From Arcobacter cloacae (GTDB lineage Bacteria > Campylobacterota > Campylobacteria > Campylobacterales > Arcobacteraceae): a stretch of 64,000 nt of DNA. The stretch spans positions 1,178,001 to 1,242,000 of the forward strand of contig NZ_CP053833.1 of assembly GCF_013201935.1 (NCBI RefSeq), read 5' to 3'. The notes under the pieces were generated by a model. That model saw only the letters and a list, made by a program, of their open reading frames with translations, ran no database searches and was not told the DNA's origin. Of the stretch, positions 4,181 through 37,011 are shown piece by piece. Positions within the stretch are counted from its first letter, which is position 1. Every line of letters starts with the position of its first letter. The position numbers were made by a program, and so were the translations under genes.

Positions 4181-4789
4181 ATGAGTAAAAAAGTTGATGA
4201 AAAAAAAGAGATAAAAAGAATCAAAGAAAATATCACTGAAGTTGAATATAAAAAACTAATGTCATTTATTAGAGGAAATGAAACATTAAGAGAGAATACA
4301 AAATTAAATCTTCTTAGAACTTTTACTATTTTATTTTTTACTGGTCTTAGACTTAATGAAGTACAAGAACTAAAAATAAAAGATATAAAAAATTTATTAC
4401 AAGATGGAAATGTAAAAATAGATATTTCAAAAACATCTACTCAAAGAAAACTATATCTAACAAACTCTTTTCAAAAAGAACTTGTAAAACTATTTGATTT
4501 TAAAAATGAAGATGATGAAAATAAAATCATCTCAAAAGGTAGTGATAAAAATAAAAGAACACCTATTAATAATATTGTATTTATACAACAAGTAAATAAA
4601 ACCATTAAAGAGATTTTAGGAGAAGGATATTCTTCTCATAGCTTTAGACAAGGATTAATTACAGAAATGGGAAGTAAATCAATAAATATAAAAATCATAT
4701 CCCAATTTGTTGGACACAAAAATGTAAGTACAACAATGGGATATATAAAGCCTACTGATGAGCAGATTAGGGAGACTTTGATTAGGTGA
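4181..4789 (+). CDS. Short tyrosine recombinase (catalytic domain only)
   Basis: A 202-aa protein with the full set of catalytic boxes: TGLRLNEVQEL (box I Arg), SSHSFRQGL (H-x-x-R), QFVGHKNVSTT (Gly-His) and MGYIKPT (nucleophilic Tyr). It lacks the usual N-terminal core-binding domain; only about 30 charged residues precede the catalytic part. Phage and ICE integrases are usually 300-400 aa, so this is either a naturally compact recombinase, as in some integron- or XerH-like small enzymes, or a trimmed one. It stands alone upstream of the defence cluster. Confidence 0.7.
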   Translation: MSKKVDEKKEIKRIKENITEVEYKKLMSFIRGNETLRENTKLNLLRTFTILFFTGLRLNEVQELKIKDIKNLLQDGNVKIDISKTSTQRKLYLTNSFQKELVKLFDFKNEDDENKIISKGSDKNKRTPINNIVFIQQVNKTIKEILGEGYSSHSFRQGLITEMGSKSINIKIISQFVGHKNVSTTMGYIKPTDEQIRETLIR

Positions 4790-5051
4790 TTTGTATTGTA
4801 AAAATAGTATTTTAAAATTACAATTAGAATACATTTAAATTATAAATATAATAGTTTTGTAGTTTGATTATATTGTTGAAATATTATATTAATAATATAT
4901 TTGTATTAAATTTAAATTACTTTAGTAGTAAATATATAGTATAAAATTATTGTAAATAAAAATTTAAGTTGAATTTAAAATAATAATTAACCAGTATTTA
5001 TAGACATTTTTTATATTATACGAATCTAAAATAATAAAGGTGCAAATAAAA

Positions 5052-5903
5052 GTGAGTAAAATTAAAACATCATTTTCTGGTCATGATAAATTTGACTGTA
5101 AAATCGATTGGATTGTAAAAGGATTAAAAGAATTTAAAAATGATTCTTTATTATTCTCTTCTTCTAACATTGAAAATTCAATTTCTAAATTGGGACTTGG
5201 AATTAATATGATTAAATCATTAAGTCATTGGTTCAAAGTTTTAGGATTAGTAAATGAAGACAAGTTATCAATGTTAGGAGAACTAATATTAGAAAAAGAT
5301 CCATATCTTGAAAATAGTGACATACTTTGGCTATTTCATTGGAATTTAGTTAAAAATAAAGAAAAAACAACTTTATATTACTTATTCTTTAATTACATAT
5401 ATCAGTATAGATTTTCAAAGGAAAATATTTCAATAGAAGTAGTTAATTGGTTGGATAAAAATGAGATTAAATTATCATCTAATACTATCAATTCAGATAT
5501 TGATGTTTTTCTTAAAATGTATAGTAATTCTGAAGGTGATGAAATAAATTTTAGCTTATTATCAGATTTAAATATATTGACAAAATTAAAAAATAGTTAT
5601 AATTTAAATATAAATTCAACTGCTCCAATTTCAGATGATGTATTTTTGTATGTTCTAAATGATTATATAAATATTTTTAAACTAAAAGAAAATGATTCTT
5701 TATCAATTAATGACATACAAAGAGGTGAATTAAGTATTCAAAAAACATTTTGTATGAGTGAAAATAAACTATTTTCTAAAATAAATCAGCTACATAACTT
5801 AACTAATGGTAAGTTGTCTTATTCTGAAGCAGCTGGCATAAGACAAATATACATAACAGAAATTTTAGACAATTATACATTATTGAAAAATATATTGAAG
5901 TAA
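5052..5903 (+). CDS. sspB: SspB-like DUF4007 protein of a DNA phosphorothioation module
   Basis: A GTG start at 5052 is preferred (283 aa) because AAAGG lies at 5036-5040; GTG at 5040 would overlap that site. The N-terminus KTSFSGHDKFDCKIDWIVKGL, then ISKLGLGINMIKSLSHWFKVLGLV and DPYLENSDILWLFHWNLV, is the DUF4007 signature. To my knowledge SspB, which nicks DNA for single-strand sulfur modification in the Ssp system, belongs to this family. The next two genes, a large P-loop ATPase and a PAPS-reductase-like protein, give the sspB-sspC-sspD order. The C-terminus (SYSEAAGIRQIYI) may be DNA-contacting. DUF4007 genes also occur in other contexts, so the role is inferred from neighbours. Confidence 0.75.
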   Translation: MSKIKTSFSGHDKFDCKIDWIVKGLKEFKNDSLLFSSSNIENSISKLGLGINMIKSLSHWFKVLGLVNEDKLSMLGELILEKDPYLENSDILWLFHWNLVKNKEKTTLYYLFFNYIYQYRFSKENISIEVVNWLDKNEIKLSSNTINSDIDVFLKMYSNSEGDEINFSLLSDLNILTKLKNSYNLNINSTAPISDDVFLYVLNDYINIFKLKENDSLSINDIQRGELSIQKTFCMSENKLFSKINQLHNLTNGKLSYSEAAGIRQIYITEILDNYTLLKNILK

Positions 5904-5912
5904 GGAAAGATA

Positions 5913-8900
5913 TTGTTCTCTTATAAAAACTACATCACTCTAAATAGTAAATTTAGTAAATCAACTAATATCATTCATGATAGTGAAAATTGTGAAAACT
6001 ATATTCTTACAACATCAGCACAAAATGTATTAAAAGTACTTTTTAAATTAGATTATCATAATTCTATTTCACTAATTGGACCATTTGGTTGTGGTAAATC
6101 AACATTACTTTTATATATAAATACATTATTATCAAATAATGAACATCAAGAAAAATGCATTAAAAAACTAAAAGATACAAATAGTGAATTATATAACTCA
6201 TATAAATCTTTTTTAGATAATAAAAGCTTTTTAAGAATTAAAATTGTTGGAGAACATATTTCTTTCAAGTCCCAACTAAAAGCAGTTTTACAAGAAAATA
6301 AAGATTTAAAATTATCAAATAAATATTTAAAAGAAGAATCTTTTTCATTAAATAAGTTATTAGAATTTCTAAATAAAGATATTGAAAAATCGTTATATAC
6401 AAATGTTCTATTTTCAATAGATGAATTTGGTAAATTTATCGAGTATGGATTAGAAGATCATAATTCTAATGATATTTTCGAATTACAAACATTATCAGAA
6501 TATGTTAATAAAAAAGATAATTTTAAATTAATTGTATCTCTACATAAGTCTTTCAATGAATATAATTTAGATTCGAGTGCTATATCTTATTCTGATTGGG
6601 ATAAAATCCAAGGTAGATTCGAAAATATAGTATTTAAAGATGATTATTATGAAATGCTAAATATCTTTAAAGAAACTATTACTCTAAAAGAATCAAATGA
6701 TTTAGTAATCAGTCAAAATATAGTTAAAGAAATATGTTCTGATAAATCTTTTAACAAAAATATAGATATCAAAGAACTTGAAAACTTATTTGAAAAGATC
6801 ATTCCTATTCATCCTTATTCCGTTTTGATTATTGCTGAAATATTTTCAAAATACTTTCAAAACCAAAGATCTATTTATTCATTTATATTTTCTTCGGAAC
6901 CAAATGGTTTTCAAGATTTTATAGAAACGGAGTTTGAAAACCAAGAATTATATGGATTATCAAATTTATATGATTATGTAGCATATTTACTTAGAGTTTA
7001 TTCAATAGTTTTACCAGATAGTGAAGCTTGGTATTTTTCTGAAGATAGATTAAAAGATAATAGAGTTGAAAATAAAGTTCAAAAAGATATTATTAAAACA
7101 ATATCTTTAATTCATACTTTCAAACTATCAAATACTGTTTTACCAAATAGTAAGCATATAGTTTTATCTCTAATTGATAAGTATAATGAAGAAATTATTT
7201 TACAAAATATTGATAATTTAGAAAAGTTAAACTTATTAATATTCCAGGAACAAACACAATCATATTCTTTATTGGCTGATTCAAATATTGATATAAATAA
7301 AGAATTGAGAAATTTAACTTCTAAGAATATTACTTTTAATTATGAACTAGAGATTAATAAGATTATTAAAAACAAAGAGATAATAGCTAAGAGATATTTT
7401 TCTGAATATGGTTCAAAAAGAGTTTTTGAAAAAATATATGTTTGTGAAAATGAAAAAGTGTTAAAAAATAAATACAAAATATTTATTATAGATGCAAATA
7501 GATTTGACCTGAAAGATTTATCTTTAAAAAATAACAAATCTTTATTTTTATCTTTAAAAAATTCTCAAAAACTAAATACATTAGTTGAAAAAGTTGAAGC
7601 TTTAAAAATCATAAAAAATGATAATAAAGAAAAAGTTAGTATTAATACTATAGATATTTTAGATAATATGATTTTAGATAGTAGTACTGCAATTGATACT
7701 ATTTTAACAGAAGGATATATTAGTAGTAATATATATCATAATGGTTTAGAACATAAATTTTCTTCAAAAACTTTACAAAAGTTAATTTCAGATATTTCAA
7801 TGGATTCTTTTCCTGATACACCAAAAATCAATAACTATACACTAAATCATACTATTGCAAATAAAGGTACTAGTACAACTTTTATAAAAGCATTGTTTGA
7901 TAATATGTTAGAAAATCCAGATCAAAAAGATCTAGGGATTGAAAAATTTCCTGCTGAAAAGGCATTGTATCTATCAATAATTAAACCTTCTGGTATACAT
8001 AGATTTGAAAATAATGCTTATGCCTTATATCCTCCAAATGATTTAAATTTTGAAAATGTTTGGAATGAAATTACTAAATCTTTAAAGAAAAGAACAAAAA
8101 TTGTAGATTTAGTCACAAAACTTGAAGAAGAACCATACGGATTAGATAGAACTAAATCATTATTTATGATTTCACTTTTTATTATTGTAAATAAAGAATC
8201 AATAAATATTTTTAGAGACAATACATATATATTTGATTTGTCACTTGATATGCTTATGAATATGTGGAAAGCAACAGATAAATTTGAACTACAAATAATC
8301 AAATTGAGTAAAGATGAAGAAAATCTTTTCAAAGTATATGTTCAATTAACTACTGATCTAACTGACAGTAATTTTACAAAAGAAAAAGTATCTTCTATAA
8401 TTAGTACTTTACATAGTAAATTTAGTTATTTACCTGAATATGCTCACAGAACAATGAATCTATCAAAAGAAGCAATTTCATTAAGAACAGAGTTGGTTAC
8501 TATGCGTGAACCTACAAAATCATTTTTTGAATCTTTTCCAAAAGCTTTAGGTTTTGAAAAAATATCAAATATTGATAATGATGAATTTATTCAAAAATTT
8601 AGAAAAGCATTTAATGAAATTGCACTTTCATATAAAGAAGAGTTATTAGATTTAGAAAAATATATTTCATCAGTATTTTTATTTAAAACTACTAATTTTC
8701 CTTATGGAAATTCACTTATTGAAATGTCAGAAAAATTATCTAAGATTGATGGTTTAGATTATAACTCAAAAGCAATAGTAAGATGTTTTACTTACTCTAA
8801 TTCAATAGTAGAATTTGTAGATGGTTTATCTATGATTCTTATTAGAAAAAAACTAGAACAATGTTATGACAATGATGTTACTCAATTCAAAGAAAAATTA

Positions 8901-9155
8901 AGTGAATATGCTGAAAAGCTTTTATCAAAGCTTGAGTTAACAGATATTGCACAAGAAAACCAAGACGTTAGAAAGATATCATTAACTTCACTAGATAAAA
9001 GTTTGAATAAAATTATATCTATAAATAAGAATGAAATTGATAGAATCGATAAAAAAGTTGCTGAAATCAAAAAGTCAATACCTAATAATTTTACAAATGA
9101 TCAAAAACTATATCTAATTTCACAACTACTAAATGAAGAGTTTAATAATGAATAA
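5913..9155 (+). CDS. sspC: SspC-like P-loop ATPase (1080 aa)
   Basis: Starts at TTG 5913 behind AAGGAAAG, 9 nt after sspB. The N-terminal NTPase domain has Walker A GPFGCGKS (residues 56-63) and Walker B LFSIDE (166-171), followed by EFGKFIEYG. The remaining ~800 residues are helical and charged, with no domain I can name; the end has a coiled-coil-like stretch. In the Ssp system SspC is the ATPase working with SspB and SspD to place sulfur in the DNA backbone. It overlaps sspD by 8 nt, so the three are one operon. The call rests on context, order and the P-loop; the length should be compared with known SspC. Confidence 0.68.
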   Translation: MFSYKNYITLNSKFSKSTNIIHDSENCENYILTTSAQNVLKVLFKLDYHNSISLIGPFGCGKSTLLLYINTLLSNNEHQEKCIKKLKDTNSELYNSYKSFLDNKSFLRIKIVGEHISFKSQLKAVLQENKDLKLSNKYLKEESFSLNKLLEFLNKDIEKSLYTNVLFSIDEFGKFIEYGLEDHNSNDIFELQTLSEYVNKKDNFKLIVSLHKSFNEYNLDSSAISYSDWDKIQGRFENIVFKDDYYEMLNIFKETITLKESNDLVISQNIVKEICSDKSFNKNIDIKELENLFEKIIPIHPYSVLIIAEIFSKYFQNQRSIYSFIFSSEPNGFQDFIETEFENQELYGLSNLYDYVAYLLRVYSIVLPDSEAWYFSEDRLKDNRVENKVQKDIIKTISLIHTFKLSNTVLPNSKHIVLSLIDKYNEEIILQNIDNLEKLNLLIFQEQTQSYSLLADSNIDINKELRNLTSKNITFNYELEINKIIKNKEIIAKRYFSEYGSKRVFEKIYVCENEKVLKNKYKIFIIDANRFDLKDLSLKNNKSLFLSLKNSQKLNTLVEKVEALKIIKNDNKEKVSINTIDILDNMILDSSTAIDTILTEGYISSNIYHNGLEHKFSSKTLQKLISDISMDSFPDTPKINNYTLNHTIANKGTSTTFIKALFDNMLENPDQKDLGIEKFPAEKALYLSIIKPSGIHRFENNAYALYPPNDLNFENVWNEITKSLKKRTKIVDLVTKLEEEPYGLDRTKSLFMISLFIIVNKESINIFRDNTYIFDLSLDMLMNMWKATDKFELQIIKLSKDEENLFKVYVQLTTDLTDSNFTKEKVSSIISTLHSKFSYLPEYAHRTMNLSKEAISLRTELVTMREPTKSFFESFPKALGFEKISNIDNDEFIQKFRKAFNEIALSYKEELLDLEKYISSVFLFKTTNFPYGNSLIEMSEKLSKIDGLDYNSKAIVRCFTYSNSIVEFVDGLSMILIRKKLEQCYDNDVTQFKEKLSEYAEKLLSKLELTDIAQENQDVRKISLTSLDKSLNKIISINKNEIDRIDKKVAEIKKSIPNNFTNDQKLYLISQLLNEEFNNE

Positions 9156-10005
9156 AAAAGATTTACATGTTATAGCAATATCTGGTGGAAAAGATAGTGC
9201 TGCATTAGCTATATACTTAAAAGACAAATATCCTGAAAGAGAATTTATGTATCTTTTCTTTGATACAGGAGAAGAGTTAGAAGAGACATATCTATATATA
9301 AATGATTTAGAATCTAGATTAGGTATAAAAGTTAGAAGAGAATTCCCTGCAAAATCTTTTAAAGAATTACTTTTAGAACATAACGATTTCTTACCTTCAC
9401 CTACACAAAGATGGTGTACTAGAAAGATGAAAGTTGAAACATTCTTAAAAGTTATGGAAGAGTTTGAAGGATATCAAGTATATAACTATGTTGGTATCAG
9501 AGCTGATGAAGATAGGGTAGGGTTAAGACCTCCAATGGATAATATCACTACAGTTATGCCTTTTCAAGAAGATGGAATAACTTTAGAAGATGTAAAAAGA
9601 ATTTTAAATGATTCAGGTTTAGGACTTCCAAGATACTATGAGCCAGTAAAAGATGAGGAATACGATATCGAATATTATAGAAGTAGGTCAGGTTGTTACT
9701 TTTGCTTCTATATGAGACAAATAGAATGGGTATGGTTATATGAAAAACACCCTGATGAATTCAAAAAGGCAATGCAATTTGAAAAACAAGGTTTTTCATG
9801 GATTCAAGATATGCCATTAAGTGATCTTATCAAACCAGAAAATATAGATAAAATCAAAAAATCATATAAAAGAACTGAAGAATTAAAAAAGAAACAGCCA
9901 CTTAAAAATGGAACAGTAATGCAACAAATGAGTAACATGTCAAAACATGATCAGGCATTAGATGATTTTGAAAAAGATAAATTCTGTTCAATGTGTATAT
10001 TATGA
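9148..10005 (+). CDS. sspD: SspD/DndC-like PAPS-reductase-family sulfurtransferase
   Basis: The start at 9148 (285 aa) has a GAAGAG site 8 nt upstream; an in-frame ATG at 9133 lacks one. The ATP-pyrophosphatase loop SGGKDS is near the N-terminus. DTGEELEETY and the cysteine-bearing RWCTRKMKVE and GCYFCFYMRQIEW segments are those of the PAPS reductase/DndC family, in which cysteines hold an iron-sulfur cluster and relay sulfur. DndC and SspD activate the DNA backbone with ATP and deliver sulfur from a cysteine desulfurase. The C-terminus ends CSMCIL, two more cysteines. No desulfurase gene is adjacent, so a chromosomal IscS/NifS-type enzyme may serve as SspA. Confidence 0.85.
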   Translation: MNKKDLHVIAISGGKDSAALAIYLKDKYPEREFMYLFFDTGEELEETYLYINDLESRLGIKVRREFPAKSFKELLLEHNDFLPSPTQRWCTRKMKVETFLKVMEEFEGYQVYNYVGIRADEDRVGLRPPMDNITTVMPFQEDGITLEDVKRILNDSGLGLPRYYEPVKDEEYDIEYYRSRSGCYFCFYMRQIEWVWLYEKHPDEFKKAMQFEKQGFSWIQDMPLSDLIKPENIDKIKKSYKRTEELKKKQPLKNGTVMQQMSNMSKHDQALDDFEKDKFCSMCIL

Positions 10006-11633
10006 TAAGTGAAATAGAAAAAAAATTATTAAAATTTATAGATGACAATAATAGTGGTATTGTTAATTATGATTCATCGGATATTTATATATCGTTAAAT
10101 GACGAAATAACAATATTAGTTAATATTAATGGCAAAGAATTTGAAGAAGAATATGAAGAATTATACGAAGTTTTAGAAATTGAGATTTCATTAGATCAAA
10201 TTTATAATAGTGAGTTATCAAAAATTATTGATGTTAATAGTATATCTTTTCATTTTTTGACTCATTCTAATACGTATTTTCAAGTTTTAAATTTTTTAAG
10301 AACTTATTATAAATATTTTTCTAAGATACCTATTATAAATATTACCACTAACGGCAGTGGATATTGCTCTTACTATGATTTACTTTATGAAATAAAAATA
10401 GATAAAGACTGTTATTCAGAAATAAGCTTTTTTAAAGAAATATATAATTTAAAACAAAATTATGAAAAATGCAGTTTTATATCAAAATACTATGATGCCA
10501 TTTCTTGGTATGGATGGCAAGACTTCTCTAAGAAATTTGAGTTAGATTTTAATAGTGTAAAAATAGTAACTACTCAAACAAAAGTTAGAAGATTGAGTTA
10601 CATCAAAATGATATTATCTATGTTTAGTAAAAGTAATTATTATCCAGATAATATATTTAATAATAAAATTGAGTTAGAAGCTAAAAGGTATAATGAATAT
10701 CTTTTAGAATATATAAATACAAAAGGGCTTATAGATATTACTAAATCAGGTAATTCTTCAAAACCATATGTTGAAACTTGTCTTTCTTTAAAATTATTAT
10801 ATTCTCAGAATAATAAATATCAATTGTCAAAATACGGAAAAATATTTAATGTTTTAAGTAATGAAATAGAAGAAGTTCCAGGTAATTATTTTTCATTATC
10901 TAAATATGAAAAATCATTTTTTTTATTTTTTATTATGCAAAGTGATAACTTATATTTATGGGCACTCTTGGATCTGATTTATATCCAAAATAATAAAACA
11001 ACAATAAAAGAAATTAAAAAAGTATTTCAAGAGTATTTAATTAATCAACTGTACTTTACTGTTAAGCATTCAAATATACCAAATAAAGAGAAATCTAAAA
11101 TAACATCTTTAATAAATAGAATTAATTCTTGGAAAAAACCACAAGTATATTTAGAACATATTATTGAACCAAGAATAAATTGGTTATTAGATTTAGATTT
11201 ACTAGACAAAGATGAATTTTTACAAAATAATATAGTATTATCAAAAGAAGGATATGTTTTTTTTAGTGGTTTAAATTCTTATTTTGATATATTTCAAGAA
11301 AAGTATACTATCTTAGACCATTTAAGATGTATGGATTTTTTTAGTTTAATAAATGAAATGTATTCTATGGATGCAACAGCTGTAGAAGAAGATGACATAG
11401 AATTAATAGAAAACTATATAAATGAAAGCTTTAATTTGTTTAAAACTATTGCACCAAATAGAGTTACTGCTTCTCAAGCAATATTATATACATGCTTTAT
11501 GATGCTCTTTAAAGCTAAAAAAGTTGTTAATTTTTGTACAATACAAAATTATCTTGCAAGTAAAAAAAACACTAAATTTATTTTTGAGTGGTATAAAACA
11601 GAAAATGATGGTTCAATTAGGAGAAAAAAATGA
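10002..11633 (+). CDS. Unknown 543-aa protein in the Ssp/Dpt cluster
   Basis: ATG at 10002 overlaps the sspD stop by four bases (ATGA), so translation is coupled. The acidic N-terminal ~65 residues (KEFEEEYEELYEVLEIE) lead into a helical protein with no recognised catalytic motif. Repeated short helix patterns such as LSKYGKIFNVLS and LSKEGYVFFSGL resemble winged-helix units, which would suggest DNA binding; this is only an impression. Its stop overlaps the start of the following ATPase by four bases. Always having partners on both sides suggests it forms a complex with the ATPase and the PIN protein. It could correspond to part of the published SspFGH module, which I cannot verify. Confidence 0.6.
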   Translation: MISEIEKKLLKFIDDNNSGIVNYDSSDIYISLNDEITILVNINGKEFEEEYEELYEVLEIEISLDQIYNSELSKIIDVNSISFHFLTHSNTYFQVLNFLRTYYKYFSKIPIINITTNGSGYCSYYDLLYEIKIDKDCYSEISFFKEIYNLKQNYEKCSFISKYYDAISWYGWQDFSKKFELDFNSVKIVTTQTKVRRLSYIKMILSMFSKSNYYPDNIFNNKIELEAKRYNEYLLEYINTKGLIDITKSGNSSKPYVETCLSLKLLYSQNNKYQLSKYGKIFNVLSNEIEEVPGNYFSLSKYEKSFFLFFIMQSDNLYLWALLDLIYIQNNKTTIKEIKKVFQEYLINQLYFTVKHSNIPNKEKSKITSLINRINSWKKPQVYLEHIIEPRINWLLDLDLLDKDEFLQNNIVLSKEGYVFFSGLNSYFDIFQEKYTILDHLRCMDFFSLINEMYSMDATAVEEDDIELIENYINESFNLFKTIAPNRVTASQAILYTCFMMLFKAKKVVNFCTIQNYLASKKNTKFIFEWYKTENDGSIRRKK

Positions 11634-12757
11634 CATATCAAAAACTAGGATTAAAAGAAAACCCGTTTAGACTTACTCCACCTCTTGATCAAAGTGAAAT
11701 AATTTGGGCAGGAATGAATGAAGTTAAAACTAGTATTGAAAATAGGATTAAAATCGCTTTATTAACTAAAGCTTCTAGAATTGTTTTAAACTGGGGAGCA
11801 TATGGTAGTGGAAAAACTCATGCTTCATTATATTATTCAAAAACAAATAGATTGGAAGAAATGGCAAAAGATAATAATGTATCACCTGCTAAAAGCATTA
11901 AAATAACATTACCTAGATCCTCAAATAACATTGTGCAAGAATTTTTTAGATCATTCTTAGGACAGTATTCATTAGAAGATATATTCTTAGATTTTAAAAA
12001 AATTAAAGCTAAGTTTGGTGAAGACAAATTGAATTTAATGATTAATGCATATTCTAATGATAAAAGTATTGAAGATGTTTTGAAGAAATTAATAGATATA
12101 GAGAGTAATACTTCAGAGGATTTTATTAAATTAAAAAATTATATCTATGGAGATAGTACAAAAGGGACATTGACTTCTTTAGGTTTGCCTCTTGGTTTAA
12201 ATAATGATGAACAAATTGCAAATTTAATGGCAGCAGTTATTAGCTGTATAACACATGATAAAGAAATATATTCAAGCTTTATTATTTGGCTAGATGAATT
12301 TGAAGATATTGATACTGTTAATAAAAATTTAGCAGATAGATTTACAACATTTCTAAGACAATTTATTGATAAAACATCAAATAATTTATTACTTTTTTTG
12401 AATTTTACTCAAAAAACTTTTATGGATATGGAAGATTTATCTGGTTACTTAGGAGAAGCTTTAACTTCAAGGGCTAAGGCTAAAATTGATTTTGCAAACC
12501 CAACTTTAGAGGAATCTATTGTTTATATAAAAGATTTATGTGAAAATGAATTATTTAAAATAGAAGGAAAAGGTTCACCCTTTGATAATGATGAAACTAT
12601 AAAATATGTGTTAGAAAATATTGGGAACCTTACTGCAAGAAAAATAAATGAAAGTTTTTCTATAATTTTTGAAATGGCATTAATAATGGATAAAGAAAAA
12701 ATAACAACTGATTTTATTGATGAAATTAAAGATGAGATTATTGCTTGGAATAATTAA
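11630..12757 (+). CDS. AAA+ ATPase, ORC/ExeA-like, in the Ssp/Dpt cluster
   Basis: A 375-aa protein starting KLGLKENPFRLTPPL, the 'GL.ENPF' opening common in ExeA/TniB/ORC-like AAA+ ATPases. Walker A is GAYGSGKTH (about residues 57-65) and Walker B FIIWLDEFED (about 220-229). SRAKAKIDFANPTLEE after it fits sensor/arginine-finger and lid regions. Start and stop abut both neighbours (4-nt overlap before, immediate junction after), so it is part of a fixed three-gene unit. Such ATPases often load or activate a partner on DNA; here the likely partner is the PIN-like nuclease encoded next. Confidence 0.7.
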   Translation: MTYQKLGLKENPFRLTPPLDQSEIIWAGMNEVKTSIENRIKIALLTKASRIVLNWGAYGSGKTHASLYYSKTNRLEEMAKDNNVSPAKSIKITLPRSSNNIVQEFFRSFLGQYSLEDIFLDFKKIKAKFGEDKLNLMINAYSNDKSIEDVLKKLIDIESNTSEDFIKLKNYIYGDSTKGTLTSLGLPLGLNNDEQIANLMAAVISCITHDKEIYSSFIIWLDEFEDIDTVNKNLADRFTTFLRQFIDKTSNNLLLFLNFTQKTFMDMEDLSGYLGEALTSRAKAKIDFANPTLEESIVYIKDLCENELFKIEGKGSPFDNDETIKYVLENIGNLTARKINESFSIIFEMALIMDKEKITTDFIDEIKDEIIAWNN

Positions 12758-13609
12758 ATGAATCTTATTTTAGATACTTGTACTATAAATAATTTATTGC
12801 AAGTTGATTTATCTTTAGAAGAAGATGAATGTTCTTTAGAATTTGATTATCTTCATAGAATTCAAAAGGAATTTGATATTAAAATACCTCCAAAAATTTA
12901 TGAAGAACTAAAAAACACATTTTCAAAAAACTTAACTACAGGTTATGAAATAAAATTTATTAAGAACTATATGAGTAGATATATTTGTAATTATGTAGAT
13001 AAGGTTGATGAAAGTGATTTTGAATCATCTTTAAATTTTATTAAAATAACACATCCTAAATATGAACAAGAAGATAATGGTGAACTACATTTAGCTGCTT
13101 ATGCTTTATATTTAAATAGGTATAAAAATACTTTAGCTTTTCAGTCTTATTTTGTAACAGATGATGATGAAGCTATAGATGACTTTAAAGATACATTTAA
13201 AATTAATTTTTTAGGGGATATTCTAACAACAATAGATTTACTATTATTAATGAGCGTACATGGAATAATATCTCTTTCAAAGGTATTAAGTTTTGCTTTA
13301 AATTTAAAAAGGCAATATAGCCAGGTATATAACAAGCTAATCAATGAAATTAAGAGTTTACAAAAAAAAGAGCTTCTAGTACAAGAAAGTGCATTACTAA
13401 CAAAGATTTATAATAATATTGAAGATTTTAATTTAGAGGCATTAGAAGAAGATATAAAACATAAAATATTTCCAAATATTAAACAAAAAAATAAAAATAT
13501 AGAAACTTTTATTAGAGAATTTTTAAATGAAGATTTTAAAAAAGTTATAATATTAGAAAAAAAAATTGATGAAATAAAATCTAAATTTTGGGATGTTTCG
13601 AAAATATAA
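12758..13609 (+). CDS. PIN-like nuclease in the Ssp/Dpt cluster
   Basis: A 283-aa protein starting directly after the ATPase stop. MNLILDTCTINNLL has the first PIN-fold aspartate (D6); a glutamate-bearing segment follows (PPKIYEELKN), then DNGELHLAAYAL and YFVTDDDEAIDDF, the conserved acidic pattern (E, D, D) of PIN/VapC-like ribonuclease folds. The C-terminal half is a charged helical extension not seen in VapC toxins (about 130 aa), so this is a larger PIN protein, probably the nuclease of the three-gene set. A run of nine A near 13556-13564 in the last codons could slip. The short gap after it holds a promoter for the Dpt-like genes. Confidence 0.62.
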   Translation: MNLILDTCTINNLLQVDLSLEEDECSLEFDYLHRIQKEFDIKIPPKIYEELKNTFSKNLTTGYEIKFIKNYMSRYICNYVDKVDESDFESSLNFIKITHPKYEQEDNGELHLAAYALYLNRYKNTLAFQSYFVTDDDEAIDDFKDTFKINFLGDILTTIDLLLLMSVHGIISLSKVLSFALNLKRQYSQVYNKLINEIKSLQKKELLVQESALLTKIYNNIEDFNLEALEEDIKHKIFPNIKQKNKNIETFIREFLNEDFKKVIILEKKIDEIKSKFWDVSKI

Positions 13610-13686
13610 AAATATTATTTATTAATAATATTTAAAAGATAATTAAAATATAATGACTTCTATTATAAAAATAATTAGGAATATAA
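13610..13686 (+). promoter_or_regulatory. Promoter region between the modification and Dpt-like modules
   Basis: This is the only non-coding gap of any size within 5052-22162. TATAAT lies at 13649-13654 and AGGA at 13677-13680, 6 nt before the dptF ATG. It suggests that the downstream restriction-type genes can be expressed separately from the modification genes. No clear -35 box or operator repeat. Confidence 0.45.
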
Positions 13687-15489
13687 ATGTTTTTTAAACT
13701 TCTTGCTGCATATGCTCCTACCTCTCAAAACAAAGCATCTTATGACGAACATGTTACAAAATATGCTAAAAAACTTGGTGTTGATGAAATCAATATTGAT
13801 AATGGCTTATTTGCTAAACTATATGGCTCTTTTATTAAAGAAGCAAAATCTATAATAATTTCAGGTTCAGCTGGTGATGGAAAAACATATTTATTAAGAA
13901 AATTATATGAAACATTAAACAAAAGTATTTCATCTTGGAATGACTATATTCCTGAATTAGATTTTGATAAATATAAGATTAAGTTTATTAAAGATTTTAC
14001 TGAAATTGAACAAGTTGACAAAGAAAATGTTTTAGATGGATTGTACAATGCAATATATGAAAATTCAAATATATTATATTTTATAGCTGCTAATGATGGA
14101 ATACTAACAGATACATTAAGAGACTATCTTGATGAGAAACCACATTTTTCTAAGTTGTTAAATAATATAGAAGAACATATAGAGCAACACACAACGAATG
14201 ATGGATTAATATTATTAGATTTAAGTCAAACTTCATCTTCTAAAAACTTTGAATTATTGCTAAATGAAATTTTAAATTATTGTGATGAGTATGAAAAGAA
14301 TTGTCCTAGTTTAACAAATGAAGAAATATTTTGTCCTATACATTCAAATATTAATTTATTAAAAGAAAAAAATATCCAACAACAATTAATAAATGTCATT
14401 AGAACATGTGATTTAAATTATAATCATATTACATTAAGAAAATTGTTTATGCTTATTGCTAATACAATTTTAGGTTATAAAGGTGACAAAAAGATTTTCA
14501 ATAGTTGTGAAGAGGCTATTGAGTATTTTAAAGTGTCAAACTTAAGGACTGATGCTTCAATATATAATAATATTTTCGGAGAGAATCTTCCTCAAAGTAA
14601 AAGAGAAAAAAGCCCATTTAAAGAGTTAAGAGAACTTAGAATTGGGTTTGAAACTACTAATAATATAGATAGTTTTTTATTATTTGGAGACATTAAGAAT
14701 GAAAATCTATACAATAAAGAATTAGATAATCCATTTATTAATCTAAATATATTTAAAAATAAAAAGATTAACTATCTTAATGGTAGTGATGATGAATCTT
14801 CAGACTCTATTAATGATATACAAGAGTTTCTAATTTTCTTTAGAAGACACCTCTTTTTTAATCTCTCTAATCAACTAAAATTAGAAGATATTGAAATAAA
14901 TCGAAATGAATTAATAGCTTATAAACATGCAGATAAGTTTTATAATGATGTTGTTTTATCTTTAAAAGATGGCAAAAGCCCACAAAAAAGTATTATAAAA
15001 GAATTAGCTTTAGGTTTAAATAGAGTTTTCTTAGGTGAGTTAATTAGTAAAGATGCTAATGACAGGTTATATATCGCAACATCTCTTACTGGTACTATGT
15101 CAAAATTATCTTCTGAAATAATAGATGAAATAGTATTTAATAAAAAAAGTTCAAATGAAGGGCTTAATTTAGAACTTATTAATGGCTTTGATGATGAATA
15201 CTGTAAAGTCAATTTAATTATTCAATATGGTGGGGAAGATATAGCTAATTTAGAACTTGACCTTCATATGTTTGAATTTTTATGCAGAATCTCTGACGGA
15301 ATACTACCTACTAGTTTTTCTGTAGAATATTATGAACGTGTTTTAACCTTTAAATCCCAAATAGTAAATCATATTCTAAGTGAAGTAGAAGTTGATGAAA
15401 CATTTAATCTATTCACTCTAAATGATAAAGAAGGTACTCTACAATTTAATGAAATAGAAATAGGAAATGGTAATGTTTACGAAAGCTAA
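13687..15489 (+). CDS. dptF: DptF-like P-loop protein of the phosphorothioation-dependent restriction module
   Basis: A 600-aa protein with Walker A GSAGDGKT at residues 60-67. The GSAGDGK form, the length and the position upstream of a DptG/DptH-like pair fit DptF (DndF). Residues 96-120 contain a YFIAANDGILTDTL segment following the NTPase core. The DndFGH complex restricts DNA lacking phosphorothioate marks and contains ATPase activity. It has its own promoter region and ribosome site, and its 3' end overlaps the next gene. Other P-loop proteins of defence islands share the GSAGDGKT loop, so the family call leans on context. Confidence 0.62.
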   Translation: MFFKLLAAYAPTSQNKASYDEHVTKYAKKLGVDEINIDNGLFAKLYGSFIKEAKSIIISGSAGDGKTYLLRKLYETLNKSISSWNDYIPELDFDKYKIKFIKDFTEIEQVDKENVLDGLYNAIYENSNILYFIAANDGILTDTLRDYLDEKPHFSKLLNNIEEHIEQHTTNDGLILLDLSQTSSSKNFELLLNEILNYCDEYEKNCPSLTNEEIFCPIHSNINLLKEKNIQQQLINVIRTCDLNYNHITLRKLFMLIANTILGYKGDKKIFNSCEEAIEYFKVSNLRTDASIYNNIFGENLPQSKREKSPFKELRELRIGFETTNNIDSFLLFGDIKNENLYNKELDNPFINLNIFKNKKINYLNGSDDESSDSINDIQEFLIFFRRHLFFNLSNQLKLEDIEINRNELIAYKHADKFYNDVVLSLKDGKSPQKSIIKELALGLNRVFLGELISKDANDRLYIATSLTGTMSKLSSEIIDEIVFNKKSSNEGLNLELINGFDDEYCKVNLIIQYGGEDIANLELDLHMFEFLCRISDGILPTSFSVEYYERVLTFKSQIVNHILSEVEVDETFNLFTLNDKEGTLQFNEIEIGNGNVYES

Positions 15490-16996
15490 TATACTAAAAG
15501 AAAAATATGGTAAAAATCTATCTACTCCATTTTTACAAGAATTGATTTGGTTTCATAGGATTAAAGAAGATCAAGATAAAGAATTATTAGCTTTAGAATT
15601 TTTAAATGTCTGTGCAAGTCATGCAAGAGTTGATAGATTATTTGATAAAGAGTTATCAACTGTATCATATAAAAAAGACATGCAAGTTAGAACTATAATA
15701 TATAATTTCCCAGAGTTAGAATCTATTGTAAAATCATCAAATGAAGAAGATGATAAATGGATAGAAATTGAAAAAACTCTCTGTGAAAAATCTGAAAATC
15801 CATATAGTTATAAACATTTAAAAGATAGATTTGAAACGGTTGATGTATTTTATCACTCGATACAATTATTAAGAAAAGCTTCTTTAGGACTAAATACATC
15901 ACGAAGGTGGACAAGTAAATTTTTATTCCCTTTTTCTTTTGATACTTTATTTGTAGATGTAGATAATAGAAAAGATGCATTTTCATTAGATAGAAGATTC
16001 TTTTCTCGTGGAGGAGAGGTTTTATATCTAATGGTTAGTCGAGGTAAAAATGCTGATAAACTAAAAGAACTAATAATTGAATCTTATAAAAAGTCTCCAC
16101 AGAATAAAAGATGGAATTCCCTATTAAATGTATTAAGAGATGATTCAAATATTTATGCAGATGATAGAGAGTTAGGGTTTTTAGGAACAGATAATCATGA
16201 ACTATTTGATCAATTAGTAGATGATTTAATAAAATTATTTGAATTAAATATTAGCCAAAATGATATTTTTGAACATCTATCTTCTATTTCTGCATATTAT
16301 ATGGTTCATTTTATAATGATTAAATCCCTTGAGATAGTTAAAACGAGTAATATCAGAACTGAAGTTACTAAAGTAGTATATCCTATTGAGTTGATGGCAC
16401 CTAAAAGTGATCATGTTAGAAAATCTTCTAGGCAAATTTATAAAATTAATGAAGATTTACCATTAGAAGCTTTATCTAAGGTGTTTAATAATTATATGGA
16501 TAATCTTGATAATACAATTGATAAAGCTACATTGTTAAAAAAATTGAAAGATGACTTAAATTATTTTTATGAAGATAATCAAGATGAGGAGAATATTAAT
16601 TTAACTGAAATAAGACAAGATATTTGGAAAGAAATTTTAAAAAAAGCTAAGTCTGATTTGACATCTATTCATAGAGTACTATTTAAAGGAGTAGGTTTAG
16701 CCAGCGTTAAAAAAACAAATAGTTACAGATATCTAGCAAATGATGAGTGGCTTAAAACATTAGTATTGATCAATGTTAATAAAAGAGTTACTTTTCAAGA
16801 ATTTATAGATCTTTTATATAAAAAATATGGATTTATTATAAGTAATAAGCATTCAATTTTATTAATAGAATCATATTCAGAAAGTGATTTTGAAAAAAAT
16901 GAACAAAGATTATTTGATAGATTACGTGCATTAGGTTTATTGGAAAATAAATCTGATGGATATGCTTATGTTATAAATAGATATGGGAGAAAATAG
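15473..16996 (+). CDS. dptG: DptG-like protein of the restriction module
   Basis: ATG at 15473 (507 aa) is favoured over ATG 15467 because AGGA (15462-15465) is then 7 nt upstream. It overlaps dptF by 17 nt. No catalytic motif is recognised: the protein is soluble and helical with a basic middle (SRRWTSKFLFPFSFDTLF). The last ~80 residues (VTFQEFIDLLYKKYGFIISNKHSI..) resemble a winged helix. The assignment is by position between a DptF-like NTPase and a DptH-like translocase, as in DndFGH. Only 3 nt separate it from dptH. Confidence 0.55.
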   Translation: MFTKANILKEKYGKNLSTPFLQELIWFHRIKEDQDKELLALEFLNVCASHARVDRLFDKELSTVSYKKDMQVRTIIYNFPELESIVKSSNEEDDKWIEIEKTLCEKSENPYSYKHLKDRFETVDVFYHSIQLLRKASLGLNTSRRWTSKFLFPFSFDTLFVDVDNRKDAFSLDRRFFSRGGEVLYLMVSRGKNADKLKELIIESYKKSPQNKRWNSLLNVLRDDSNIYADDRELGFLGTDNHELFDQLVDDLIKLFELNISQNDIFEHLSSISAYYMVHFIMIKSLEIVKTSNIRTEVTKVVYPIELMAPKSDHVRKSSRQIYKINEDLPLEALSKVFNNYMDNLDNTIDKATLLKKLKDDLNYFYEDNQDEENINLTEIRQDIWKEILKKAKSDLTSIHRVLFKGVGLASVKKTNSYRYLANDEWLKTLVLINVNKRVTFQEFIDLLYKKYGFIISNKHSILLIESYSESDFEKNEQRLFDRLRALGLLENKSDGYAYVINRYGRK

Positions 16997-16999
16997 AGT

Positions 17000-19900
17000 A
17001 TGAGTCTTATAAGTAAATACATCATAAATAAGATTATTAAAGAAAGTCAAATATCAAATTTTGATGGAACAAGTGGAAAATTTATTTTAAGAAATTATCC
17101 TCCTTTTGTATTTGAGTCTTTAATAAAATATTTTTCTTCTAATATTCAATACAATGTTATATTATTGATTGATGATAAATTAAACTTAACTACTGATAGT
17201 GATAATTGTATTAATGCTAATCATGAAATTATGGCACAGTACAGAAATGAGAATGTTAAAAATTGTTCTGTTGAATTAGATAAAATTTCATATTTAGTTT
17301 TTTTAACAAATGAAACAATTGATACCTTAAATGATATTAGTACTTTAACTCCAGATGATATTAGTATTGAATTTGAAAATATTATTGATTTAATGGAAAG
17401 CTCACTTTTAAATGGTAAATCTAAACAAAATATTAAGACTATTACAAAAGTATTATTAAAAGAAATTGAAGAATTAAGTCCATTTGAAATAGAGACTTTT
17501 ATTGAATCTATTTTGAAATATATGGAAGAAGAAGCTTATCCTTTAGAAGATGCTATGGGATTATCATTAGATAAAATAAATTCTTTTAAATGTCATAAAT
17601 GTTTTGAATCATTAAAAAAACTAGATTCTATAAAGCAAAAAGATTTTCAGAAACTTATAAAACCTATTAAAATGATTTCTGCTGCTTTATCAAAAAGAGT
17701 AGGTAATAAAACTCTTAGTATAGAAGAATTAGAAGAAAAATATTATAAAAATATTGAGACAAAAGAACTTGATGATGAATTCAAAATATTAGATAAGAGC
17801 AAACAAAATTTAATCGAAAAATTTATAAAAGCAGACGCAAGAGAAGCTTCACAGGATAAATATTTATTTAGTCAATTAGATTGGTACAATGACTCTATAT
17901 ATAGATTATTTCAAAAGACAAAAACAGATACTACTCAAAAACTTGGTGCGTGTACCATTGACTTACTATCAGAAAAAGATGCTGATATTACTGATAATGA
18001 AAAAGAAAATTTATTACATTATGATGAATTATCTGCAAAAGAAAGAGATAGTTTAAAATCTGTATTAGAACCTATCTATCTCAAATATAAACTTACAATA
18101 GAAGATAATAAATCATTAAGAAGTAAATGGGATAAGTTTTTATATCCGACTCAAACAAAATCTAATGATTTTATTTTAGGTGTGTTAGAAACAATAAAAA
18201 AACTAAAATTAGATGATGAAAATGTGGAACATATTAGTGTTTATTTAAAACAGAAACAATCAAAAGCTATAATGAGAAACTATTCTAAATATGCAATAAA
18301 TTATTTGAATAGAAGATATTCAATATTAAATTCAATTTCAGAAAATATTTACTTCGATTTTGAATTTATAAAAGAAATTGAAGAAAAAACTGAAAGTAAA
18401 TTAGAAAAAGATAGAAAAGATCAAGTAATAAAAAAATATAAGAAGGGGAGTGTATCTAAAACTGCAAATGAGTTACATTTTATAATAGAATCAAAAGATG
18501 CCGATGGTAAAAAACTTGCAGAAAGAAAATTAATATGGTCTTTTAATCCAAATAGTTTATTAAGTGGATATAAAGAGGATATTGATTCGATACAATCACA
18601 TTTAAAAAATAATAGCTTATATGGAAATATTGTATATAGAGCAACTGGTTCTGAAAAAGGTGAAAAAAAACCATTAAGTTTATATGATTTTAGTTCTTTA
18701 GAAAGTAGAGGTAGTAATTCAGGGTATATTTTATTTCCTAAAAAATGCCAAGATAATGCACCTTCAAGTAAAAGTATTATTAAGGTTGCAAAAGAAATAT
18801 TAGATATAGAAAAATTTAAAGAATTTGAAGAACTAATAAAAAAATATATGAATGAATATCTATGGATATTAGAGCATTTAGATGTAAAAAGAAATATTGA
18901 AAAAAATATTTTTAATTTTATAAAGATAGAGGAATTTAGTAATAGTTATATAAAATTAAGTAATTTTCTTTATGAAAATAGTGATAATGATAGATTTAAA
19001 AAAGAAGTTATTGAAGAATTTCTTTCTTTATTAACAGTTAGAGTAGGGAAAGAAGATTCAGTTATTATTCCTTCTTATCATCCTTTAAGATTAATATCAT
19101 ACTTTGTTAAATTAAAGCATGCTTTTGGTTTCATTGATTCTTATATAAAATCAGATGATATTTGTATGATAAAAGAAGATCTGTTTTTTAGTGATCTTGA
19201 ACAAAGTTTTTATACTCCTTATTATCCAGAGGTATTTAGATTATTTAATGCTAATACAAAGGAAGAAAGTTTACTTCATATTTCTGAAGTATGTGATGAT
19301 TACACAGTACTTGATCCAATAAAGAACTATCTTGAAAGTGGACAAAGTACTGATCCATCTGTTCAAACAACGATACTTACAAAGGTTATAGAAAACTATT
19401 TATCATTAAATAATCATAAGCAAAGTAGTTTAAAAATATTACTTCATGCCGTAAATAACTATGATTTTCCAGTGAAATTTATGAAGAAATTAATGTCACT
19501 AGATTTTGTAAATGAAAATAATAGTTTTGAGATTTATTTAAATGATGTAGATGCATCTCACATAAGAAAAATGTACAGATCTTTTTTAGTTGATCAAAAC
19601 TCTAAAGATTCAGAAGAAGCTTTTGAATATAATGAAGTTTCATTCTTATCGAATATAAGATTAAATGCTTTTGATCAAAGTTTTAAACAACTTGATAGTG
19701 TAAATGATCAGCTAAATATTGCTTTTTTAAATGATTTTGTGTCTTCAAAAGCAAAACTTGAATTTAGGAATCAAATATTAGATATATCTTATGATTTATT
19801 TGATTATCATCCTAATATGTGGACAAAAAGAAAGTATATGACAGAAAAAGAACTAACTGTTGGTAAGTATTTAGTGTCACCTGCAAAAACAGAATTAACT

Positions 19901-22162
19901 AGCTCTTTTTATGATTTATTATATTCAACAATGAGTTCAAATAGAGATGATTATAAAAATAAAATACCAACATTAAATATTGATAGAGGACATCAAAATT
20001 TATCTTCAGATTTAGCAGCAATTCATAAAAGAACAGATTGGGTTGTTAATTTAGATTCTCTCTTAGATAAGAAAATTTTAGAAGAATTTGGAGCAAATGT
20101 AATAAAGTACCGTAAAGCTCGACATATAAATAGAAATTTAGTTATATCATCTAAAGCTAATACTATACTTTTAGAAAATCATTTAATTAAAAAATTTGAA
20201 GAATTTAATGTAAATACTCAATTGATTAGATCTTCTGTAGATAAAATAATTAAATCTGCAAATGAACTTTCTGGAGATGTTTTATTAAAAGCTATAGGTA
20301 GAGGAAGATTTGCAAATGAGATGTTAGGGTTAGTACTTACAAAGACTATTCTAGAAAATTGTACAAATAAAAAAAATGTAATGATTTATATTGATGATTA
20401 TGCTGATTGGTTTTTATCTAGTATTAATTCAGAAGAAAAGTTATTAATGAATCAAAATAATGTATTAGCAGATATTTTATCTATCACACCTATTTTTGAA
20501 GATAATGATTTGTCTACTATTTATGTTGATATTGTTGAAGTCAAATTTTGTAATGAGGCTGGAAGAGCTAATTTAGCTAAAAAATCATTACAACAGACTA
20601 AAGATTCATATAATCATATAAAAAAAGTTTTTGAAAATAGTAATTTTTATGACAAAGAGTATTGGTTAGCCAAAATTTCTGATTTAATAGTAGAAACTCA
20701 TCATAAAAGTTTTGAAAATAGTTTAACATCAGAAGATATTAGAAATAAAATTAGACTTGATAAGACAATTAAATATAAAGTTAGAGGTATGTCATACATA
20801 TTTGTATATGACCATGAGGATGATTATCAAGAGATTAAAGATGATATTACGCAGTATGTAATTGGTTTGAAGTCTATTGTTTCAATGATTGAATCAATGC
20901 CTAGTATTAATATAAATTTTAATGAATTAAGTTTACCTACTTATGAAAAAATAGGAAAAGATAAATTTGATTTATCATTAATTATTGAAAACGTAGAAAC
21001 TGATGAAAAATATTCTGATGAGGAAGTTGTTTTAGATGATAATATAATTGATAATGATGTATCTGAAATCAAAAAAATAAAAGATTTAAATATAAAAAAT
21101 GATGAGATAGAGGGAAAACAAATTTCAGATGCAGTCAGAAAAATAGTTTTACATCATAAATATAGAGCTAAAATAATTAAATATTTATTTACTCCGAATG
21201 CAATTCGTATTTCACTAGAACCAGAATTAGGATGGAATGAATCAATATTTTATAAAATGGCAAATGATTTTTTATCTGTTGAAAGATTAAAACTATTGAG
21301 GGTTGAAGTTGTTCCAGGTTCTTATGATTTAATTTTTGAAAGAAAAGAAAGACAAGTAATATATTATGAAGATTGTTTAGATAATAGAGAATTAAGTGAA
21401 GGTTTTGGGAATACAAAAATACTTCTAGGTAGAAATGAAGAAAATAATGAAGTTGTATATTATAACTTAAATAGTATAGATCCTCATGCCTTAATAGGTG
21501 GTCAAACAAATAGTGGAAAAAGTGTATTAATAAATACAATAATTGTAGATTTAATTAGAACTAATACTCCAGAAGAGTTAAAATTAATATTATTGGATCC
21601 AAAACAAGTTGAATTTAGTAGATATGCAAATATACCTTATTTAGATGAAGATGGAATAATTGTAAGTAAAGATATAGCTATAAAAAAATTAGACCAAGTT
21701 GTGCAAGAAATGGAAATTAGATATTCATTATTTAAGGAATTAGGTGTAAATAATATAATTAAATTTAATGAGAAATCAAATAAAAAATTAAATAGAATAG
21801 TTGTAGTATTTGATGAATTTGCAGATTGGATGCTAGATGATGAATTTAAACGAACTGTAAGTGATTCAATACAAAGACTTGCAGGAAAAGCAAGAGCTGC
21901 TGGAATTCACTTAGTAATTGCAACTCAAAGACCAGATAATACAGTAGTACCTCCTATTTTAAGGGCTAATTTAGGTGCTAAATTTGCATTGAAAGTTGAT
22001 GCAGAAAAAAATTCAAATATTATTTTGGATGAAACAGGAGCAGAAAAGCTTTTAGGTAATGGCCATATGATAACCAAATTTGCAGGTAAAAAACTATTTG
22101 TTCAGTCGACATTTATGAGTGATGAGTATATTGAGAATATTATAGAAACATTAAAAAGATAA
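17000..22162 (+). CDS. dptH: DptH-like large protein with C-terminal FtsK/HerA ATPase
   Basis: A 1720-aa protein. The first ~1450 residues have no motif I can name. The C-terminal domain is a HerA/FtsK-type motor: Walker A GGQTNSGKS (about 1500-1508), LILLDPKQVEFSRYANIPYL, Walker B VVVFDEFADW (about 1602-1611) and ATQRPD. DptH/DndH proteins are about this long with a C-terminal HerA-like ATPase and act with DptF and DptG to restrict unmodified DNA. GGAGA lies 9 nt before the ATG. It is the last gene of the cluster; intergenic DNA and the oppositely oriented core gene pepD follow. Confidence 0.75.
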   Translation: MSLISKYIINKIIKESQISNFDGTSGKFILRNYPPFVFESLIKYFSSNIQYNVILLIDDKLNLTTDSDNCINANHEIMAQYRNENVKNCSVELDKISYLVFLTNETIDTLNDISTLTPDDISIEFENIIDLMESSLLNGKSKQNIKTITKVLLKEIEELSPFEIETFIESILKYMEEEAYPLEDAMGLSLDKINSFKCHKCFESLKKLDSIKQKDFQKLIKPIKMISAALSKRVGNKTLSIEELEEKYYKNIETKELDDEFKILDKSKQNLIEKFIKADAREASQDKYLFSQLDWYNDSIYRLFQKTKTDTTQKLGACTIDLLSEKDADITDNEKENLLHYDELSAKERDSLKSVLEPIYLKYKLTIEDNKSLRSKWDKFLYPTQTKSNDFILGVLETIKKLKLDDENVEHISVYLKQKQSKAIMRNYSKYAINYLNRRYSILNSISENIYFDFEFIKEIEEKTESKLEKDRKDQVIKKYKKGSVSKTANELHFIIESKDADGKKLAERKLIWSFNPNSLLSGYKEDIDSIQSHLKNNSLYGNIVYRATGSEKGEKKPLSLYDFSSLESRGSNSGYILFPKKCQDNAPSSKSIIKVAKEILDIEKFKEFEELIKKYMNEYLWILEHLDVKRNIEKNIFNFIKIEEFSNSYIKLSNFLYENSDNDRFKKEVIEEFLSLLTVRVGKEDSVIIPSYHPLRLISYFVKLKHAFGFIDSYIKSDDICMIKEDLFFSDLEQSFYTPYYPEVFRLFNANTKEESLLHISEVCDDYTVLDPIKNYLESGQSTDPSVQTTILTKVIENYLSLNNHKQSSLKILLHAVNNYDFPVKFMKKLMSLDFVNENNSFEIYLNDVDASHIRKMYRSFLVDQNSKDSEEAFEYNEVSFLSNIRLNAFDQSFKQLDSVNDQLNIAFLNDFVSSKAKLEFRNQILDISYDLFDYHPNMWTKRKYMTEKELTVGKYLVSPAKTELTSSFYDLLYSTMSSNRDDYKNKIPTLNIDRGHQNLSSDLAAIHKRTDWVVNLDSLLDKKILEEFGANVIKYRKARHINRNLVISSKANTILLENHLIKKFEEFNVNTQLIRSSVDKIIKSANELSGDVLLKAIGRGRFANEMLGLVLTKTILENCTNKKNVMIYIDDYADWFLSSINSEEKLLMNQNNVLADILSITPIFEDNDLSTIYVDIVEVKFCNEAGRANLAKKSLQQTKDSYNHIKKVFENSNFYDKEYWLAKISDLIVETHHKSFENSLTSEDIRNKIRLDKTIKYKVRGMSYIFVYDHEDDYQEIKDDITQYVIGLKSIVSMIESMPSININFNELSLPTYEKIGKDKFDLSLIIENVETDEKYSDEEVVLDDNIIDNDVSEIKKIKDLNIKNDEIEGKQISDAVRKIVLHHKYRAKIIKYLFTPNAIRISLEPELGWNESIFYKMANDFLSVERLKLLRVEVVPGSYDLIFERKERQVIYYEDCLDNRELSEGFGNTKILLGRNEENNEVVYYNLNSIDPHALIGGQTNSGKSVLINTIIVDLIRTNTPEELKLILLDPKQVEFSRYANIPYLDEDGIIVSKDIAIKKLDQVVQEMEIRYSLFKELGVNNIIKFNEKSNKKLNRIVVVFDEFADWMLDDEFKRTVSDSIQRLAGKARAAGIHLVIATQRPDNTVVPPILRANLGAKFALKVDAEKNSNIILDETGAEKLLGNGHMITKFAGKKLFVQSTFMSDEYIENIIETLKR

Positions 22163-36720: not shown

Positions 36721-37011
36721 ATGGAAATATCATTTGAGAATCTAAATAAAATTGTTGATATATTAGAAAAATTAGATTCATTAAATTCAAAAATATTAAA
36801 TATTGAAAATAGACTTGCTCCAAAACTTGATTTAACAAAAAGAGATGGAGTAAAAAAGTATTTAGATATAAGCGATAGTACACTTTATCAAATGATGAAT
36901 GATGGAAGATTAAAACAAAATATTCATTATAAAAAAACTATTAATGGAAAACGTGTTAATATAATTTTTGTAGAAAGTGCGATTGTTGGTTTCAAGGAGA
37001 ATCAAAAATGA
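36721..37011 (+). CDS. Excisionase-like helix-turn-helix protein
   Basis: 96 aa. The N-terminal half is a short coiled coil (NKIVDILEKLDSLNSKILNIENRL). The C-terminal half, KRDGVKKYLDISDSTLYQMMNDGRLKQNIHYKKTINGKRVNIIFVESAI, is an HTH_17/MerR-like DNA-binding motif as in excisionases (Xis/AlpA). Strong ribosome site AAAGGAGAG. It overlaps the integrase by four bases (ATGA), the usual xis-int arrangement. Likely role: control of direction of recombination and of integrase expression. Confidence 0.75.
   Translation: MEISFENLNKIVDILEKLDSLNSKILNIENRLAPKLDLTKRDGVKKYLDISDSTLYQMMNDGRLKQNIHYKKTINGKRVNIIFVESAIVGFKENQK

Follow-up and report, generated by a model that had tools for sequence, protein, structure and literature searches.

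A candidate ATPase–PIN nuclease cassette between SspBCD and SspFGH in a phosphorothioate defence locus of Arcobacter cloacae

The window analysed here is a stretch of 64,000 nucleotides of the Arcobacter cloacae genome. An ORF check of the window confirmed the nine open reading frames of the cluster, all on the + strand, spanning positions 5040 (5052 with the preferred first start codon) to 22162. In gene order, they are sspB, sspC, sspD, three genes termed g4, g5, and g6 (the trio), sspF, sspG, and sspH. The products have lengths of 283–287, 1080, 290, 543, 375, 283, 600, 509, and 1720 residues, and the successive junctions measure +9, −23, −4, −4, 0, +77, −23, and +3 nt. The co-directional order with overlaps and tiny gaps, proposed in an earlier sequence-only reading, was borne out. 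The 77-nt gap between g6 and sspF is the largest in the cluster, and the only one roomy enough for a separate promoter. A promoter scan in this high A+T sequence returned fewer sites than in shuffled controls and was uninformative. Integrases and an OLD-like ATPase are encoded near the cluster in the window.

According to the family models, the first three genes are sspB, sspC, and sspD, a single-strand phosphorothioate (PT) writer in one operon, as the sequence-only reading had supposed. The sspB gene (5052..5903, +) encodes a DUF4007 protein, the DNA-nicking/DNA-binding subunit of the writer (Pfam DUF4007, E = 5.6e-59; PADLOC SspB, E = 8.7e-107). Its start at 5052, likewise favored earlier, was picked by comparison with homologues, which it fitted better than the longest open reading frame; a GTG at 5040 is the alternative. 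The sspC product (5913..9155, +) is the BrxC-like ORC/Cdc6-clade ATPase of the writer (PADLOC SspC, E = 2.6e-143), and sspD (9133..10005, +) encodes a PAPS-reductase/PP-loop sulfur transferase (Pfam PAPS_reduct, E = 7e-13; PADLOC SspD, E = 1.2e-91). By analogy with the family, SspBCD, together with a cysteine desulfurase encoded elsewhere, would place sulfur on one DNA strand. No desulfurase gene was found in the nine-gene cluster. Elsewhere in the genome there were strong class-V aminotransferase/desulfurase matches (best E = 3e-118), among which IscS, NifS, and SufS were not told apart. Judging from these matches, a desulfurase to serve the writer (in the role of SspA or IscS) is available from outside the cluster, an arrangement that the family permits.

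The last three genes were assigned to the published SspFGH restriction module. The sspF gene (13687..15489, +) encodes a P-loop protein with the motif GSAGDGKT (PADLOC SspF, E = 8.7e-115), and it is followed by sspG (15467..16996, +; PADLOC SspG, E = 1.4e-99) and sspH (17000..22162, +). SspH carries a C-terminal FtsK/SpoIIIE translocase domain (PADLOC SspH, E = 1.2e-263; Pfam FtsK_SpoIIIE, E = 1.8e-38). A DptFGH or DndFGH identity was rejected, as the Dnd/Dpt FGH models gave no match to genes 7–9 at E ≤ 0.1. These systems do resemble SspFGH in combining a P-loop protein with a large FtsK/HerA protein and, according to the literature, in damaging unmodified DNA. The sequence-only reading had called the last three genes Dpt-type and the cluster an Ssp writer joined to a Dpt restriction module. 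That description falls, because the genes are assigned to SspFGH, and SspBCD–SspFGH is already described as a PT defence in the accessible text of PMC8092258. In that system, SspFGH damages DNA that lacks PT, with protection provided by SspBCD together with IscS. The damage to non-PT DNA and the toxicity in the absence of SspBCD are data from Vibrio anguillarum FF-93 only. As far as the same text goes, the FF-93 SspABCD–SspFGH system shares with the window a writer, a three-gene restriction module, the lack of SspE, and a desulfurase encoded elsewhere, whereas the window has three extra genes between sspD and sspF, and the sequences are divergent. The SspBCD–SspFGH core is already known, and the trio is the addition. 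Since the published SspFGH corresponds to the last three genes, the middle genes are extra, in line with the earlier proposal that one set would be an additional effector if SspFGH accounted for only the other.

For g4, g5, and g6, no match above cut-off was obtained in Pfam, NCBIfam, PADLOC, or PHROGs, and the trio profiles gave no usable match among the sequences of solved structures. The most likely start codon of the g4 gene (10002..11633, +) is the ATG at 10002, which overlaps the sspD stop codon in an ATGA (10002–10005) and gives a product of 543 residues (546 if the upstream GTG is used). Its homologues in four other genomes are 30–54% identical. The second half of the g4 protein is largely helical in a weak model that has fair confidence in that half only, and comparison of this model with PDB folds returned only noise, with no solved fold matched. 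The g5 product (11630..12757, +) is a putative ORC/BrxD-like AAA+ ATPase. It is weakly similar to BrxD of BREX type 2, below the cut-offs of the BrxD and BrxC_BrxD models, and two motifs are invariant in five sequences, a Walker A of the GxxGSGKTHA type and the Walker B W[LI]DEFE. The g5 profile also matched a BrxD-annotated archaeal ATPase (Haloarcula) in a Dpd-like island. This ATPase is a distant relative of g5, but the protein encoded upstream of it shows no relationship to g4, and a module shared between Ssp and Dpd was therefore not supported.

The g6 product (12758..13609, +) did not match Pfam PIN. Its AlphaFold (AF2) model, with a pLDDT of 86.6 and a C-terminal helical tail, had the PIN proteins VapC, Nmd4, and FitB as top Foldseek matches (probability 1.00, with a modest best E of 0.017). 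Residues D6, E50, E109, D135, and D136 are invariant across five sequences. This modelled PIN fold and the conserved acidic residues mark g6 as a predicted PIN nuclease. The domains recognized beforehand from sequence (DUF4007, P-loop in SspC, PAPS reductase, AAA, PIN, the GSAGDGKT P-loop, and FtsK/SpoIIIE) all held, and so did the reading of the three middle genes as an additional set that includes an AAA and a PIN-like protein.

A g5 query over 397 Campylobacterota genomes gave two positives, the window's own genome and G110, and a scan of GTDB species genomes added three further carriers (a Sulfurovum MAG, Desulfococcaceae HSG9, and UASB270). The window and these four genomes represent several lineages, and the g4–g5–g6 order is kept in all five. 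Homologues of sspB, sspC, and sspD adjoin the trio at 5/5 loci (sspD only on the Sulfurovum MAG contig), and sspF is present at 2/5 (the window and the Sulfurovum MAG). G110, which is Campylobacteraceae-type and belongs to another family than the window, has SspB–SspC–SspD–g4–g5–g6 in a tight six-gene run, whose products are 60, 54, 72, 53, 63, and 43% identical, respectively, to those of the window. In the two complete Campylobacterota loci, those of the window and G110, sspD and the trio overlap in coding sequence. The Sulfurovum MAG shows sspD–g4–g5–g6–sspF on a short contig with both ends cut, and its g4 lacks the N-terminal ~190 residues. The sequence-only reading was to be refuted if no relative showed the nine-gene order. 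That refutation does not apply, since the order recurs in part, with the sspD–trio–sspF portion on this truncated contig.

In UASB270, SspBCD is followed by a transposase and then the trio, with PglZ and BrxL further on. SspB and SspC are 29 and 23% identical to those of the window, as compared with about 51–54% for g5. HSG9 has the trio intact; next to it are sspB, an sspC that is fragmentary, and a remnant of sspD on the other strand. A gene for a DndC-like protein is also present in the HSG9 genome. Searches for sspF in the genomes of G110, HSG9, and UASB270 found none, and the gene content of G110 leaves the trio as its sole candidate effector. No further carrier came from a sample of the Desulfobacterota-type phylum or from searches of the Sulfurovum family, the phylum of UASB270, and the family of G110. 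The trio is rare. G509 was rejected as a carrier, as it holds a distant ORC-like ATPase paired with HerA. Neither plasmids nor phages yielded the trio. Among plasmid records, 35 had sspF and none matched g4 or g6. In the 15 plasmid sspFGH loci viewed, sspFGH lay directly after sspD, convergent to it, or apart, and the trio was found in none. Single-sequence scans of viral contigs with g6 and g5 and of genome contigs with g4, as well as alignment scans of viral contigs, gave nothing useful. From the gene contents compared, the trio is separable from SspFGH.

DUF4007 was found in 8 of the 397 Campylobacterota genomes: one BREX type-4-like locus, one broken gene, one cut by a contig end, and five Ssp loci. 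All five Ssp loci carry a cassette immediately 3′ of sspD, beginning at or near its stop codon. This cassette is the trio in the window and G110. G264 and G407 have a two-gene set with DzbA matches in PADLOC (E = 9e-31 and 4e-28) and a DzbB-like partner, which was matched at E = 9e-5 in one genome and is a homologue of that protein in the second, and G294 has a 499-residue protein with an Mrr catalytic domain. Three of these loci (the window, G407, and G294) continue with SspFGH after the cassette, and the other two (G110 and G264) do not. SspF, SspG, and SspH of the window are 65, 66, and 66% identical to those of G407, whereas SspB and SspC are 39 and 37% identical. For G264, with its Dazbog-like cassette and no adjacent SspFGH, the SspB, SspC, and SspD values are 58, 55, and 69%. 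Since the two sets of identities rank the relatives differently, the sequences indicate that SspBCD, the cassette, and SspFGH reassort. A single sulfur-marking core thus seems to work with effectors that can be exchanged for one another. The DUF262 domain of SspE is tied to PT sensing. That of Dazbog is reported in the accessible text of PMC10952713 as likely to recognise modified DNA. Taken together, the two domains suggest that the position after sspD hosts modification-linked effectors. Dazbog itself has no homology to the trio, and descriptions of it present a defence system of two genes that stands alone.

SspB, SspC, and SspD are homologous to parts of BREX type 4 (BrxP/BrxC/PglZ/BrxL), and PglZ and BrxL also occur at the UASB270 trio locus. 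Neither was found among the nine genes or the scanned flanking genes of the window, which sets the locus apart from BREX type 4; a methyltransferase, too, is absent from the cluster. PIN RNases paired with ATPases are described as back-up effectors near BREX in the accessible text of PMC12839542. The trio resembles these OLD-ABC/PIN systems and the ORC/HerA capture systems of PMC10853773, as far as their accessible texts describe them, in combining an ATPase with a PIN RNase or nuclease as an auxiliary unit beside a modification system. It differs from OLD-ABC/PIN in its ORC/BrxD-like ATPase and in its third protein, g4. Pairing with SspBCD is not described for either system in these texts.

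We consider it likely that the cluster is an SspBCD–SspFGH PT defence locus of the known type, which carries the trio as an interchangeable effector cassette directly after sspD, with g5 as switch, g4 as adaptor, and g6 as nuclease. Among effectors coupled to SspBCD, the trio is a candidate for a third class, and it is probably an ATPase-gated PIN nuclease. SspBCD and the desulfurase encoded elsewhere would put sulfur on one strand, and SspFGH, by family and by the data from another strain, would damage DNA without the PT mark. The ATPase g5 would act as the switch, g4 may connect it to DNA, to PT, or to the SspBCD complex, and both would license g6. At loci without SspFGH, the trio would be the sole effector; beside SspFGH, it would form a second or back-up layer. 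The intact trio of HSG9 next to decayed sspC and sspD suggests that the trio is perhaps not lethal without PT. This weakly favors a PT-activated or infection-activated mode over a restrained mode like that of SspFGH, a hint drawn from one draft genome, in which the DndC-like protein is encoded as well.

A broader proposal is that an exchange slot starts at the sspD stop codon, that unrelated cassettes (Dazbog-type, Mrr-type, and the trio) are swapped there, and that the trio is a new PT-coupled effector class, an ATPase-gated PIN nuclease. We advance it tentatively, and lean slightly against it in this full form. Neither the trio nor the slot was found in the accessible main texts of PMC8092258, PMC10853773, PMC12839542, and PMC10952713, and a prior mention is possible. 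The accessible text of PMC8092258 counts 2,211 of 2,678 sspBCD loci with neither SspE nor SspFGH, which leaves the question of whether these are orphans or have other effectors. The trio with SspBCD alone, and the other cassettes at the same position, are concrete candidate partners for such loci, and inspecting the region directly downstream of sspD offers a search rule for more. If true, the exchange slot would account for part of this count, and the trio would be an example of a PT mark whose partner is a nuclease of the PIN type instead of a DNA nickase.

The trio could instead be an independent anti-phage or toxin–antitoxin-like unit of the same defence island, neither sensing nor needing PT. 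Because clustering in islands is usual for defence genes, nearness by itself is weak evidence for coupling; integrases and the OLD-like ATPase lie nearby in the window, PIN nucleases are common as stand-alone toxins, and the decayed sspC and sspD of HSG9 suggest that SspBCD is perhaps not strictly needed there. The case for coupling draws on the ATGA overlap, the fixed order, and the repeated linkage to divergent SspBCD at five trio loci. The trio stands beside sspB, sspC, or sspD homologues at every one, although DUF4007 is rare, it overlaps sspD in both complete Campylobacterota loci, and the linkage recurs in UASB270 with a strongly diverged writer. On balance, independence seems unlikely.

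Much less probable is a role in assisting the writer, through target choice or regulation of SspBCD. The translational overlap with sspD, the SspBCD homologues beside every trio, and the membership of g5 in the broad ATPase group of SspC and BrxC–BrxD would fit such a role. However, SspBCD sets without the trio exist in published systems and plasmid loci, the slot is filled elsewhere by nuclease or Dazbog-type defence genes, and g6 has kept all PIN catalytic acids. Least probable of all is an accessory part in SspFGH restriction within a nine-gene machine. The trio does separate sspD from sspF both in the window and in the Sulfurovum MAG, but G110 and UASB270 combine SspBCD and the trio in genomes where no sspF was found. 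Conversely, G407 and G294 have SspFGH closely related to that of the window (62–66% identity), and both lack the trio.

Tyrosine-recombinase (phage integrase family) genes flank the region on both sides (window 4181–4789 and 37008–38054), which suggests that the DNA between them is a mobile island. We looked for long direct repeats linking these two genes, and none were found. The minus-strand gene at window 30548–33568 encodes an OLD/AriA-like ATPase of 1006 aa (AAA_15; PADLOC AriA, 3e-17), and is possibly a further defence gene close to the cluster. A tandem repeat tract was observed inside it (approximately 31344–31546). Upstream of the cluster lies a HipA-like gene pair (604–1931), comprising an apparent HipA N-terminal piece (604–930) and a HipA_C gene (933–1931).

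In UASB270 and G264, SspBCD is adjoined by GHKL-type ATPases of 736–835 aa (L015:12675–14885 and L032:10918–13425, respectively). The two proteins are homologous (53% identical), and this ATPase is a recurring SspBCD neighbour without a name. Downstream of its SspBCD–trio locus, UASB270 carries PglZ and BrxL genes (L015:17069–20277), forming an Ssp/BREX type-4 hybrid arrangement.

Sulfurovum g4, the first trio protein (L013:849–1958), lacks the N-terminal ~190 residues and keeps the remainder, which suggests either that its N-terminal domain is dispensable or that the shortening is an artefact of the MAG. A distant relative of g5, the trio ATPase, is the BrxD-like ATPase encoded with QueE and TGT in a Dpd-like (7-deazaguanine) island on the Haloarcula plasmid pHsi139 (L003:4630–13122).
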